Below, one piece after another: positions 31,725 to 34,644 of a stretch of DNA of 34,968 bases. A program made the position numbers and the translations under genes. The notes below the pieces were generated by a model that made no database searches, had not been told where the DNA came from, and saw nothing but the letters and a program-made list of their open reading frames with translations. The stretch is from a virus: IMG/VR virus record IMGVR_UViG_3300034374_004243, positions 1-34,968 of that record; one strand, given 5' to 3'. Within the stretch, counting starts at the first letter, position 1, and each line of letters begins with the position of its first letter.

Positions 31725-31998
31725 CACCGCCGCTGCTCAACGAGTTACCTGTGTTCCTTATGATGATGCTATCACACCTCTTATTGAGACATATGAAGAA
31801 AAAGTTTTATATAGAGGAATTACGGACAATAGCAGATTTATGGTGGAAATATGGGCAAATGTTGAAACGGGTTCATTTACCATTGTTCGTATTGGTTATA
31901 TAGAGAGACAAAAAACGATTTGTGCCACGATTGCCGGTGAAGGGTTTCATGAGGTAACAGTACAGCCCAAGCCCGAAAAAAAATCTCCAAAATCGTAA
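31672..31998 (+). CDS. Small exported protein, 108 aa
   Basis: ATG at 31672 has AGAGGA seven bases upstream and lies inside the end of the nuclease gene; an in-frame ATG at 31651 would put seven hydrophilic residues before the signal peptide. The signal peptide MKRILFILTLLFSVGFTNTAAAQ ends in a good AxA site. The mature part has two Cys (RVTCVPY and KTICATI) that could form a disulfide, beta-type patterning, and a Pro/Lys-rich tail (QPKPEKKSPKS). A periplasmic function during infection is likely; the family is unknown. Confidence 0.65.
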   Translation: MKRILFILTLLFSVGFTNTAAAQRVTCVPYDDAITPLIETYEEKVLYRGITDNSRFMVEIWANVETGSFTIVRIGYIERQKTICATIAGEGFHEVTVQPKPEKKSPKS

Positions 31999-32006
31999 AA
32001 AAACTG

Positions 32007-32034
32007 TTGACATTTAATCTCTACCGTATATAAT
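32007..32034 (+). promoter_or_regulatory. Type B sigma70 promoter cassette, copy 1
   Basis: TTGACA at 32007-32012, 16-base spacer, TATAAT at 32029-32034. The leader to the ATG at 32069 (GTGAATGAGACAGAG..., purine-rich) is identical to those at 32480 and 32842. TATAATGATTATA at 32029-32041 is a perfect 6-1-6 palindrome. Confidence 0.85.
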
Positions 32035-32068
32035 GATTATAGTGAATGAGACAGAGAGAGACAGAAAC

Positions 32069-32449
32069 ATGACAGGCATTTACAAAGTTTTCCAGATCAA
32101 CCTCACCGATGAAGAAGTTGACACCATCAACCGCACCGGTGACCATGGCGCTGTTTCTAAGAACGTGCTGCGTATGAAGATTGATATGTCGTTTGGTAAA
32201 CCTGTTGGACATCTGGTCAAGGAAGCCTTTGAGAAAGGTTACTATGAGCATGTCAGCAACATCACCGCTAATAGCCTTGATGGTGTGTTCCATGTTGGTA
32301 ATATGGGTCCAGAAGAGAACATCGAACGGTTTCTTCCCATGCACAGCCTGAGTGTTGGTGATGTGATCATGGATGAGAACGGCATGTACCACATGGTTGC
32401 AAGTTTTGGTTTTGATGAGGTGGACGAACTTAATTTGGAGATTGCATAA
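32069..32449 (+). CDS. Hypothetical early protein, 126 aa
   Basis: The ATG at 32069 follows the type B leader; the in-frame ATG at 32033 lies in the -10 box and cannot be used from this promoter. The product (MTGIYKVFQINLTDEEVDTINRTG...) is mixed alpha/beta with a conserved-looking middle (GHLVKEAFEKGYYEHVSNI) and ends in an acidic strand. From memory, proteins with VFQINLTDEE-like starts occur in other phages. The unusual ribosome site is the GAGAGAGAC of the cassette. The function is unknown. Confidence 0.65.
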   Translation: MTGIYKVFQINLTDEEVDTINRTGDHGAVSKNVLRMKIDMSFGKPVGHLVKEAFEKGYYEHVSNITANSLDGVFHVGNMGPEENIERFLPMHSLSVGDVIMDENGMYHMVASFGFDEVDELNLEIA

Positions 32450-32457
32450 AAAAACTG

Positions 32458-32485
32458 TTGACATTTAATCTCCATCGAGTATAAT
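32458..32485 (+). promoter_or_regulatory. Type B sigma70 promoter cassette, copy 2
   Basis: TTGACA at 32458-32463, 16-base spacer, TATAAT at 32480-32485. The 65 bases 32458-32522, through the start codon of the next gene, are identical to 32820-32884. Confidence 0.85.
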
Positions 32486-32519
32486 GATTATAGTGAATGA
32501 GACAGAGAGAGACAGAAAC

Positions 32520-32747
32520 ATGACCAGCCGCGTAAAAACCACATGCCTCTGCCCCGGAGCCCACAAAACGACGAACACCTCGCCAGTCGCCTATATCGAG
32601 CGGGCGTATGACGATCCTTCAACTTGGTTCGTAAAATACGGCGACTATGCGGGGCGGTGGGCATCCTTCGCGGAGTGCAAGTCTCTCATCGAATCCGTCG
32701 CATCCATTGATGACGATAGCCACTCTTACCCCATCACGATCGGATGA
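32520..32747 (+). CDS. High-GC small protein behind a type B cassette, 75 aa
   Basis: The start codon is the one carried by the cassette (ATG at 32520). By direct count 127 of 228 bases are G or C (about 56%), far above its neighbours, so the gene looks recently acquired from a GC-richer source. The product has CLCPGAHKTT, an aromatic middle (DPSTWFVKYGDYAGRW) and EVCK-like polar segments; it resembles small beta-rich phage proteins but no named family. It stops at the edge of a duplicated fragment of the gene at 33099. Confidence 0.6.
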   Translation: MTSRVKTTCLCPGAHKTTNTSPVAYIERAYDDPSTWFVKYGDYAGRWASFAECKSLIESVASIDDDSHSYPITIG

Positions 32748-32748
32748 T

Positions 32749-32813
32749 GTGGTTGTGATGGTACGCCGATTGTTGAAAAGTGGTCTATCAAAAATTTTCG
32801 GGGATATGAATAA
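32749..32813 (+). pseudogene. 3' remnant of a paralog of the gene at 33099
   Basis: Bases 32757-32813 are identical to the last codons of the 33099 gene (DGTPIVEKWSIKNFRGYE plus stop). A few bases upstream (ATGTGGTTGT) also align with it if about 13 bases are deleted. There is no start, so this is a fragment left by recombination. Confidence 0.8.
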
Positions 32814-32836
32814 TTTTGCTTGACATTTAATCTCCA
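32757..32836 (+). repeat. 80-base direct repeat, copy 1
   Basis: Identical to 33321-33400, 564 bases downstream. It spans a gene 3' end, the intergenic bases and the -35 part of a type B promoter. Confidence 0.95.
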
Positions 32837-32847
32837 TCGAGTATAAT
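32820..32847 (+). promoter_or_regulatory. Type B sigma70 promoter cassette, copy 3
   Basis: TTGACA at 32820-32825, 16-base spacer, TATAAT at 32842-32847; leader identical to copies 1 and 2 up to the ATG at 32882. Confidence 0.85.
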
Positions 32848-32881
32848 GATTATAGTGAATGAGACAGAGAGAGACAGAAAC

Positions 32882-33097
32882 ATGATGAAATTTGCCAAAT
32901 ACGACACCAAAGCCATCGATATCAAGACCGCTTGGATGGCTACCAATGCCGAAAGTGAAGTTGATATCATTGAAAACATTAATGATGAATACGAACTTTG
33001 GATTGGCAAAAATTTCGTAGAGATGTACGAAACCTTCGATATCGCCAAGCGGAATGCTGAGGCGAAGGTTAGTTTCACTGTCAAGTGGGAGGATTGA
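32882..33097 (+). CDS. Hypothetical early protein, 71 aa
   Basis: The ATG at 32882 is supplied by the type B leader (a second ATG follows at once). The 71-residue product (MMKFAKYDTKAIDIKTAWMATNAESEVDIIEN...) is alpha/beta with an acidic middle and ends VSFTVKWED. Its shape recalls small phage proteins of the accessory early region, with no known family. It is followed by the 33099 gene with one base between, so the two form a unit. Confidence 0.6.
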   Translation: MMKFAKYDTKAIDIKTAWMATNAESEVDIIENINDEYELWIGKNFVEMYETFDIAKRNAEAKVSFTVKWED

Positions 33098-33377: not shown

Positions 33378-33400
33378 TTTTGCTTGACATTTAATCTCCA
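33321..33400 (+). repeat. 80-base direct repeat, copy 2
   Basis: Identical to 32757-32836. Here it is the intact 3' end of the 33099 gene plus the start of the next promoter. Confidence 0.95.
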
Positions 33401-33412
33401 CTGTAAGATAAT
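33384..33412 (+). promoter_or_regulatory. Type B sigma70 promoter cassette, copy 4 (variant)
   Basis: TTGACA at 33384-33389, 17-base spacer, GATAAT at 33407-33412, then GATTATAGTGAGTGAGAC as in the other copies before the leader diverges to a standard AAAGGAGAG ribosome site. Confidence 0.8.
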
Positions 33413-33456: not shown

Positions 33457-33687
33457 ATGCAAATAGGTGATAAAATCCAGCTCAAAGGTAAGAGCAAACA
33501 CGGTAAGAATCGCATCCAGCAGTTTGGTACGGAGTTTTGGATCAGCGAGATTCGCGACCGTATTCAAACAACCAAACACCGTTCGCTGCCAGGACCTTTT
33601 GCAATGGTGTTTAGCCCCACGGGTGACCATCGTTGGATCGCTTTAAAAAATGATCCAGATTTTGAGATATTGGTTGACAAAAATTAA
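33457..33687 (+). CDS. Small beta-rich protein, HGKNRIQQ family, copy 2
   Basis: A 76-residue paralog of the 24612 product: both have a K-HGKNRIQQ-x-G core after an N-terminal strand (MQIGDKIQLKGKSK), a Trp-containing strand (EFWISEIRD), a W(I/V)(A/E)L strand and DP(D/N)FE near the end. An AAAGGAGAG ribosome site precedes it. The last codons (Val-Asp-Lys-Asn) overlap the -35 of the next promoter. A small barrel with a binding function is likely. Confidence 0.65.
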   Translation: MQIGDKIQLKGKSKHGKNRIQQFGTEFWISEIRDRIQTTKHRSLPGPFAMVFSPTGDHRWIALKNDPDFEILVDKN

Positions 33688-33702
33688 TTCTTTTGGTATG
33701 AT
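33674..33702 (+). promoter_or_regulatory. Type A sigma70 promoter cassette, copy 2
   Basis: TTGACA at 33674-33679, 17-base spacer, TATGAT at 33697-33702, then ATAAACATGATGAACGAA as at 23297. It lies across the end of the upstream gene and may drive the small membrane peptide and the tRNA genes. Confidence 0.75.
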
Positions 33703-33731: not shown

Positions 33732-33821
33732 ATGTTGAATGCTCTGAAGATGTTGGTCGAGTTTACTGCTTTCTCTTGTCTGATGGCAGTTATCCTAATG
33801 TATATGGTAGCGTTCTCTTAA
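33732..33821 (+). CDS. Tiny membrane peptide, 29 aa
   Basis: Three ATGs in a row (33726, 33729, 33732) follow AAGGAG; the third has the best spacing (seven bases). The 29-residue product is almost entirely one hydrophobic helix with Met, Leu, Val and Phe (MLNALKMLVEFTAFSCLMAV...). It is the first gene after a type A promoter and just before the tRNA cluster. A small host-membrane effector is possible. The ribosome site and promoter argue that it is expressed. Confidence 0.5.
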   Translation: MLNALKMLVEFTAFSCLMAVILMYMVAFS

Positions 33822-33830
33822 TGAGTTTAT

Positions 33831-33905
33831 TCCTGGGTAGCTCAGTGGTAGAGCTGGCGGCTGTTAACCGCCCGGTCGGGGGTTCGAATCCCTCTCCAGG
33901 AGCCA
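33831..33905 (+). tRNA. tRNA-Asn (GTT)
   Basis: A full cloverleaf: acceptor TCCTGGG/TCCAGGA, D-stem GCTC/GAGC, anticodon stem GGCGG/CCGCC with loop CTGTTAA (anticodon GTT), T-stem GGGGG/CCCTC with loop TTCGAAT, discriminator G and encoded CCA (33903-33905). Confidence 0.97.
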
Positions 33906-33909
33906 ATTT

Positions 33910-33986
33910 GCTGGTGTAGCTCAGTTGGGTAGAGCAGGGGTTTTGTAAACCTCTGGTCGGGGGTTCGAGTCCCTCCACCAGCACCA
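33910..33986 (+). tRNA. tRNA-Thr (TGT)
   Basis: Cloverleaf with acceptor GCTGGTG/CACCAGC, D-stem GCTC/GAGC, anticodon stem GGGGT/ACCTC and loop TTTGTAA (anticodon TGT), T-stem GGGGG/CCCTC with loop TTCGAGT, discriminator A and encoded CCA. It follows tRNA-Asn after four bases. Confidence 0.97.
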
Positions 33987-34000
33987 TTTTTGGAGATGAT

Positions 34001-34390
34001 ATGAGTATGCATCTTGTGGGACCGTGGATGACAACAACATCCACTCGTAAACGTAAATCTAAAAAGACCAAACGTCAATTACAAGCCGATATCGAACATG
34101 ATAAATGGCTTCGTAAGATGGGTGTTCATGCAGATAAACGGGGATTGGCTCAGTCTGGTAGAGCGGGCGCTTTGGGAGCGTCAGGTCGTTGGTTCGAATC
34201 CAGCATCCCCGACCAAATTCCTCTCAGTAACAAAATTGTACCGATTCAAACGAATAAATCAGTTGACAGAGAGACAAAACTGATGTATAGTTCTCAATAT
34301 GTTGTCGGTCAAGCGTATAACAAAGGTGGTCTACAGGTACTATCTAAAGAAGACGCTAATGATCCAACCACTGGAAAGAGGCGAGGATGA
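34001..34390 (+). CDS. Small phage protein whose frame runs through a tRNA gene
   Basis: GGAG five bases upstream supports the ATG at 34001. The 129-residue frame begins MSMHLVGPWMTTT, a start I remember from short conserved phage proteins. A basic helical part (KRKSKKTKRQLQADIEHDKWL) follows. Residues 47-72 are the in-frame translation of tRNA-Pro. The end MYSSQYVVGQAYNKGGLQVLSKEDA also resembles the C-terminus of that family. The frame has no stop through the tRNA. Either a tRNA lies inside a working gene, or the gene has been split and only looks intact. An ATG at 34283 could restart the C-terminal part. The stop overlaps the next start. Confidence 0.55.
   Translation: MSMHLVGPWMTTTSTRKRKSKKTKRQLQADIEHDKWLRKMGVHADKRGLAQSGRAGALGASGRWFESSIPDQIPLSNKIVPIQTNKSVDRETKLMYSSQYVVGQAYNKGGLQVLSKEDANDPTTGKRRG
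34139..34215 (+). tRNA. tRNA-Pro (TGG)
   Basis: Cloverleaf with acceptor CGGGGAT/ATCCCCG, D-stem GCTC/GAGC, anticodon stem GGCGC/GCGTC and loop TTTGGGA (anticodon TGG), T-stem GTTGG/CCAGC with loop TTCGAAT, discriminator A and encoded CCA. It lies entirely inside the 34001-34390 frame, on the same strand, 152 bases after tRNA-Thr. Confidence 0.96.
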
Positions 34391-34644
34391 ATACCATCGA
34401 TTTTATTAATAATGCAGAATACCTTATTCGTCAGTGTCTAAATCAAACGTGGAACATGCAGATTGATCCACTGATGAAAGCATGGTTGCAGGACGCATGT
34501 CTTGATCTTGCAAAAGCAAGAGAAACGGAAAATCGCGATCTCCATTGGACTGAAGATTATTATGAAGAAGTACTACTCCTTCGCAAGAAGGTTGAGAAGT
34601 ACGAGACCATTCTAAGACATGCAATGTCTGAAAAGACTGGTTAA
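34387..34644 (+). CDS. Hypothetical helical protein, 85 aa
   Basis: Starts in an ATGA overlap with the preceding frame, which supports translation of that frame's 3' part. The product is helical, Leu/Glu/Arg-rich with a likely coiled coil at the end (EVLLLRKKVEKYETILRHAM). It has one Cys near the start (IRQCLNQTW) and one in the middle. No family is recognised. Confidence 0.6.
   Translation: MNTIDFINNAEYLIRQCLNQTWNMQIDPLMKAWLQDACLDLAKARETENRDLHWTEDYYEEVLLLRKKVEKYETILRHAMSEKTG

Follow-up and report, generated by a model that had tools for sequence, protein, structure and literature searches.

Transfer RNA genes nested in frame within a small phage protein gene

In a virus record of 34,968 bases (IMG/VR IMGVR_UViG_3300034374_004243, the whole of which is called the window here), an open reading frame (ORF) of 129 amino acids at 34001-34390, with an ATG start, stays free of stop codons through an entire transfer RNA (tRNA) gene, the tRNA-Pro(TGG) at 34139-34215 (+). 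An earlier note, made from the sequence, had claimed a complete sense-strand tRNA-Pro inside this frame, and ARAGORN, Rfam (RF00005, 61.9 bits against a cut-off of 29, in keeping with a bacterial-type cloverleaf) and the ORF scan all agree with it. Comparison with related sequences indicates that the ORF is very probably a real phage gene in which a flexible spacer has been replaced by one or more functional tRNA genes, stop-free in the joining frame, with one stretch apparently kept as both tRNA and protein. The gene and its parts are the following:

34001..34390 (+): family ORF, 129 amino acids, a relative of PHROG 27048 members with a tRNA in frame inside (ORF scan, tblastn, alignments and census)
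34001..34138 (+): N-part, 46 codons, with the MSMHLVGPWM motif, a basic stretch and one confident helix at residues 24-39 (ratio of nonsynonymous to synonymous substitutions, dN/dS, 0.21 in the Pro group; AlphaFold2, AF2)
34139..34215 (+): nested tRNA-Pro(TGG), 77 nucleotides including the encoded CCA, covering codons 47-72, with a codon beginning at tRNA base 1 (ARAGORN, Rfam)
34217..34387 (+): C-part, 57 codons, IPLSNKI ... VGQAYNKGGLQVLS ... TGKRRG (dN/dS 0.17 in the Pro group)

The identical 129-residue protein, with the tRNA in place, is present in eight IMG/VR loci (L005-L012), which makes an assembly slip in the window alone unlikely; the observation that the tRNA brings neither a stop nor a loss of frame stands.

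Alignments and searches support placing the ORF in a phage protein family whose N- and C-parts are conserved and whose spacer between them varies. Members were collected by scans of IMG/VR and bacterial genomes that gave several hundred loci, many of them stretches of one contig, and the unit counted is the distinct protein, not the contig. As read from alignments, the proteins start like MSMHLVGPWMTTT or MSGMHLLPVYY, continue with a basic stretch, a helix ending near KFLKKMG and the variable spacer, and close with one of two main C-end kinds (GIATMHKSNMVPVF...MRR or QAYNKGGLQVLS...TGKRR). Five of the ten members scanned match PHROG 27048 (function unknown), with full-length matches for the tRNA-less L022 (3.6e-19) and the nested L019 (3e-15). 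The window protein itself has no PHROG profile match at E up to 1 and is linked to these members by tblastn (L019, 53% over residues 1-73; L022, 66% over residues 1-46) and by common alignments. Pfam gave no match for the window protein and only matches below the cut-off in three of seven relatives, and a structure search returned no PDB match and, at E below 0.001, a single BFVD match, an uncharacterised phage protein. Among named phages, tblastn of the window protein found Methylophilales phage Melnitz (four records, MZ577095-MZ577098; 57.6% over residues 70-128) and, at a non-significant E of 2, Pelagibacter phage Mosig; the nested relative L181 matches Mosig at 5e-6 and HTVC008M at 2e-6. 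The family gene of Melnitz (147 amino acids) contains a nested tRNA-Trp(CCA) in an offset other than that of the window, and that of Mosig (128 amino acids) has no tRNA inside.

The census covered 526 sequences (525 loci and the window) and 221 distinct proteins with the C motif and a start. No nested tRNA was detected by ARAGORN in 121 of these (for example L022, L025, Mosig, PhiW-14 and HTVC008M), and in them the same kinds of N- and C-parts are contiguous, which supports the proposal of the earlier note that both ends of the ORF belong to one phage protein family. The remaining 100 carry one (68), two (30) or three (two) nested tRNAs, a share that is not a prevalence since the scans were seeded mostly with nested members; one scan, started from an alignment with a tRNA-less first row (five of nine rows nested), kept 80 of 151 loci, and 5 of these 80 carry nested tRNAs. 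The start choice of the census truncates L235 and L236 (two tRNAs listed; the L234-L237 frame shows three). Kept within the 100 are L408 and L422, which start at contig ends, and L421, with frame loss in the N-part, and four bearers of nested tRNAs lie outside the census (L224, Thr; L379, Arg+Pro; L420; L523).

The 85 distinct nested tRNA sequences have nine anticodons and no stop in the frame in which they are read: Pro tgg (24), Arg tct (23), Trp cca (13), Ala tgc (9), Met cat (8), Ile tat (3), Pro cgg (2), Thr tgt (2) and Asp gtc (1). The terminal CCA is encoded in 83 of them. Each of Pro(tgg), Arg(tct) and Ala is read in a single offset (24/24, 23/23 and 9/9), and two offsets occur in Trp (12 and 1), Met (4 and 4) and Ile (2 and 1). 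Combinations in one ORF include Arg+Ala, Arg+Pro, Arg+Met, Ala+Pro, Met+Pro, Ala+Thr, Trp+Ile, Arg+Met+Pro and Arg+Pro+Thr, with neighbouring tRNAs spaced 4-6 nucleotides apart in 24 of 34 cases, and the Arg+Ala pair is seen with either C-end kind (L186, L413). Median protein length among 70 representatives is 125.5 amino acids without a tRNA (52), 128 with one (13), 148 with two (4) and 190 with three (1). A single tRNA takes the place of the spacer and is not added to it, because one-tRNA proteins are hardly longer than tRNA-less ones.

Selection was analysed in the 10 of 18 tRNA configurations that hold at least three proteins each, with short or ambiguous rows dropped. Across these ten, dN/dS is 0.07-0.31 in the N-part and 0.03-0.41 in the C-part, and the proportion of synonymous differences is 0.02-0.27 in the tRNA codons against 0.27-0.70 in the flanks. 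Differences concentrate clearly at third codon positions in the flanks and do so weakly or not at all in the tRNA codons, apart from L138 compared with L158, which read the tRNA in different offsets, and an Asp pair that hardly differs. These patterns support purifying selection on the flanks as protein and point to constraint on the tRNA stretch as RNA. The stems of nested tRNA-Trp covary: 98.2% of 273 cells are paired and 9 of 21 pairs have changed on both sides (reached by 6 of 500 shuffles), and the covariation score was reached by none of 500 shuffles.

These data bear on the idea that the element has lost its tRNA function and now provides only a site for RNase P or decay, by which the message is limited. 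Processing of a nested tRNA would indeed sever the message, a consequence also put forward for selB (PMC8124441), and a class-II-like tRNA-Ile(TAT) in L081 and L234 scores below the Rfam cut-off. Against such a role stand the encoded CCA, the nine anticodons, the covarying stems and the Rfam scores of nested tRNAs (45.5-70.5 bits, against 62.5-70.3 for free tRNAs in the same 19 sources); moreover, the nested genes are the only tRNAs detected on the contig fragments of L141, L147, L182 and L302. We hold a pure decay site to be very improbable. The Ile(TAT) element, an odd 92-nucleotide tRNA called by ARAGORN and lacking U8 (L081:2758-2849, L234:2225-2316), also occurs free in L340-L343, in L341 beside a tRNA-Arg.

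The earlier note had warned that translated tRNA sequence is a known source of spurious ORFs, and a tRNA open by chance, with no such protein, could account for the 7 of 30 loci of the first scan that match through the tRNA-coded peptide only (L027, L028, L030-L034). Free tRNA-Pro is likewise open in the nested offset (0) in 8 of 10 representatives. This explanation is hardly credible given the tRNA-free relatives with the same kind of N- and C-parts and the dN/dS, which exceeds 0.41 in neither flank of the ten groups; together these answer the warning. Among 90% representatives matched for isotype and offset, all 30 nested tRNAs are open against 28 of 78 free ones (Fisher 7e-11, a value that overstates the difference, as descent is ignored, free Trp, Met and Ile are entered twice for their two offsets, and nested tRNAs were found as open frames). 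Free tRNA-Arg is open in the nested offset in none of seven representatives, and in four of them a stop falls at base 21; the D loop of nested Arg(tct) is longer and free of an in-frame TAG there, a suggestive difference seen in two nested representatives (23 sequences). In the first locus set, none of 40 distinct free tRNAs lies within an ATG ORF of at least 80 amino acids, and because of this, and because the flanks share one frame around nine anticodons, the nesting goes beyond chance.

Frame is kept across the tRNA from both sides, with few exceptions. Of 213 distinct frames that begin with the N motif, 205 continue in frame to the C motif, the reverse of what the earlier note would have expected of a false lead, namely parts that are always separate genes or a part without homologs. 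The eight failures comprise four that run off the contig (L162, L170, L249, L522), Caulobacter phage Cr30 without a tRNA, and three with tRNAs (L420, L421, L523); traced back from the C side, a proper N start is missing in L238, at a contig end, and in L298, which has unrelated sequence upstream. Both censuses rely on motifs, and members without them are missed. In L420 (L420:1501-1860), the N-part and a nested tRNA-Arg are fused in frame to a different, charged C-terminus.

Two products might also be made, an N-part ending near the tRNA and a C-part started afresh downstream, with the tRNA untranslated. An ATG does occur in the window 22 codons into the C-part, but it is not common to the relatives; no start codon common to members lies between the tRNA and the C anchor, and 8 of the 24 members examined have no ATG, GTG or TTG there. 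In close relatives the conserved IPLSNKI begins directly after the tRNA, ahead of that ATG. Tests of length speak in the same sense: nested tRNA length is a multiple of three in 28 of 85, all three classes modulo 3 are present (77 nucleotides in the window), and frame is kept in each, which separate genes would not need. We consider a fresh start most improbable. Intron-like removal of the tRNA with rejoining of the message, for which no support was found, deserves next to no credence, as exact excision would break the frame in 57 of the 85, including the window. The spurious ORF, the fresh C-part start and intron-like removal were all rejected on this evidence.

Several points weigh against a gene that is kept both as protein and as tRNA. 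The openness of tRNA-Pro alone proves little, and the statement that nested tRNAs are always open is partly a matter of ascertainment, since nested members were found as frames reaching the C motif, a bias that the two-sided census limits. Four tRNA-bearing members are not intact (L298 without an N-part, L420 with another C-terminus, L421 with the N-part frame lost, L523 with a stop after the tRNA). At 0.36-1.50, dN/dS of the tRNA codons gives no sign that those residues matter to the protein, nested tRNA-Trp is lowest in Rfam score (45.5-59.1 bits against 59.7-70.5 for other nested tRNAs), and the case for both functions is drawn from selection. Nested tRNA-Trp also lacks U8; if present, U8-A9-G10 would be read as TAG in the usual offset. 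Its base 14 is U instead of A. We rejected these features as an adaptation to life inside the gene, since A8 and U14 are shared by three or more of the 12 free phage tRNA-Trp genes (L350, L357, L358), and regard them as no more than a filter that decides which tRNAs suit that frame; nested examples of the A8 and U14 form are L002:3916-3989 and L141:2695-2768.

Predicted structures also give low confidence overall. For the tRNA-less L035, AF2 placed helices at residues 15-19, 25-41 and 45-54, nothing regular at 55-99, and then two strands and a helix (mean predicted local distance difference test score, pLDDT, 72.1; predicted template modelling score, pTM, 0.31). In the window protein, helix 24-39 is confident, and blocks 51-80, which hold most tRNA-coded residues, have pLDDT 51-60 and three helical residues only (pTM 0.28). 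The low pTM values count among the points against, and a mostly unstructured spacer fits, weakly, a role as filler.

Comparisons of close relatives point to turnover of the nested tRNAs. In the window and L016 the tRNA has the same position and reading frame, and their DNA identity is about 90% in the N-part, about 98% in the C-part (proportion of nonsynonymous differences 0) and about 69% in the tRNA codons. A tree built from 84 rows and 119 columns, with tRNA-coded residues excluded, needs at least eight changes of tRNA label, four of them forced by strong branches; many forks are open, and gain and loss are not told apart. Other tRNAs lie near the nested one in the window, L016, L017 and L018. 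Not every such site borders a tRNA cluster, because the nested tRNA is kilobases from other tRNAs in the contigs of L158, L081, L169 and L088, and none besides the nested ones was detected in the four contig fragments named above. It is tentatively possible that the gene forms a coding tRNA array, in which the spacer is a docking site where working tRNAs are gained, lost, stacked or swapped like exons as phase-compatible cassettes, the protein being kept, and tRNA supply is coupled to protein output with one fate per transcript. On the contig of L018, which carries a nested tRNA-Pro, an alphaproteobacterial or permuted transfer-messenger RNA is also present (L018:5181-5467).

Around the gene, the window holds the following features:

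33674..33702 (+): sigma-70-like promoter TTGACA-17-TATGAT, a possible start of the tRNA and ORF transcript (consensus scan only, 11/12)
33831..33905 (+): tRNA-Asn(GTT), free, upstream of the ORF (ARAGORN; Rfam 63.8 bits)
33910..33986 (+): tRNA-Thr(TGT), free, upstream of the ORF (ARAGORN; Rfam 70 bits)
33992..33995 (+): Shine-Dalgarno-like GGAG, five bases 5' of the ORF ATG (sequence)
34263..34291 (+): sigma-70-like promoter TTGACA-17-TATAGT within the C-part, 3' of the tRNA (consensus scan, 11/12)
34387..34644 (+): next ORF, 85 amino acids, its start overlapping the family-ORF stop in ATGA, 34387-34390 (sequence, ORF scan)

The GGAG and the ATGA overlap agree with the ribosome site and stop coupling that had been described from the sequence. 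At the C-part promoter-like site, TTGACA is invariant in six aligned sequences and TATAGT is found in five. L014 and L015 lack the upstream Asn-Thr pair and have one ATGAGT, against two in the window that flank the pair and are 180 bases apart (33821, 34001); their site, at window 33821-34000, represents either an empty site or a deletion. Six of ten window ORFs scanned match PHROGs, including primase, ribonucleotide reductase, exonuclease and PhoH-like, a set that we take to be that of T4-like phages, and a near-DNA search of window 1-24000 against named phages gave no match. A promoter-leader module with a perfect TTGACA-16-TATAAT, the same leader and small ORFs downstream is present in three 78-base copies (31996-32073, 32447-32524, 32809-32886), presumably resembling the mobile early-promoter cassettes of T4-like phages. 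A similar promoter lies at 33384-33412, and an exact 80-base repeat begins at 32757 and 33321.

For a gene kept as both protein and tRNA, we propose that the ribosome would read straight through the tRNA stretch, whose residues may simply fill a disordered linker. If ribosomes have yet to arrive, or on other transcripts, the tRNA would fold and be excised by RNase P and 3' nucleases, destroying that copy of the message; each transcript would then yield protein or tRNA, not both. The earlier note had already raised these two fates of the RNA, and selection on both layers is compatible with them. The promoter-like site in the C-part would allow expression of downstream genes even when the upstream RNA is cut. 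Phase-compatible tRNA cassettes may have spread through the spacer by recombination, because it would be one of the few sites in a gene-dense phage genome that tolerate a frame-keeping insertion.

Nested tRNAs are already predicted in bacteria and reported in mitochondria. In Alphaproteobacteria, selC (tRNA-Sec) is nested in selB, with a predicted either/or between tRNA and full-length protein drawn from sequence evidence (Mukai 2021, PMC8124441). As here, a complete sense-strand tRNA lies inside an ORF with tRNA-free homologs, the stop overlaps the next start in many selB cases, and an either/or outcome is predicted from sequence (PMC8124441). The selB case as described there concerns one tRNA in one gene, within a C-terminal extension of a cellular translation factor, with a tRNA length that is mostly a multiple of three (PMC8124441). 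In contrast, the tRNAs described here are not tRNA-Sec, involve no SelB extension and lie mid-gene between two conserved parts of a small phage gene of unknown function, with nine anticodons, one to three tRNAs, all length classes modulo 3 and different tRNAs between closely similar flanks. The mitochondrial tRNA-Lys inside cox1 of Armadillidium vulgare (Doublet 2015, as cited in PMC8124441) is likewise a full tRNA within a coding region, in the same direction and in a compact genome, but concerns an organelle and one tRNA in one gene.

Among phages, tRNA-Lys of mycobacteriophage Fionnbharth overlaps the protein gene 37, from the opposite strand, unlike here (PMC10865867). In the Melnitz genome paper, gene 125 is one of four tRNAs listed; the term 'gene 124' is absent from its main text, whose relevant passages carry no remark on gene 125 within gene 124 (PMC9004378). 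Melnitz 124/125 is the same family gene with a nested tRNA, although that tRNA is Trp(CCA), not Pro, and is read in another offset. Full-text searches of open-licence literature, excluding subscription papers and preprints and with one query covering the best 15 of 114 results, gave selC in selB as the one close precedent and turned up no phage protein gene described as holding a nested tRNA on its own strand. What is new here is the mid-gene position, the phage family, the nine anticodons, the arrays and the in-frame exchange.

The family carries a warning for annotation, as filters that remove tRNA-covering ORFs could delete real members of gene families. Phage Melnitz on Methylophilales H5P1 is a tractable system for the proposed competition of ribosome and RNase P on one RNA. 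With protein constraint around the tRNA and tRNA constraint within it, in one open frame on one strand and with nine anticodons, the rules of such an overlap can be read from natural variants.
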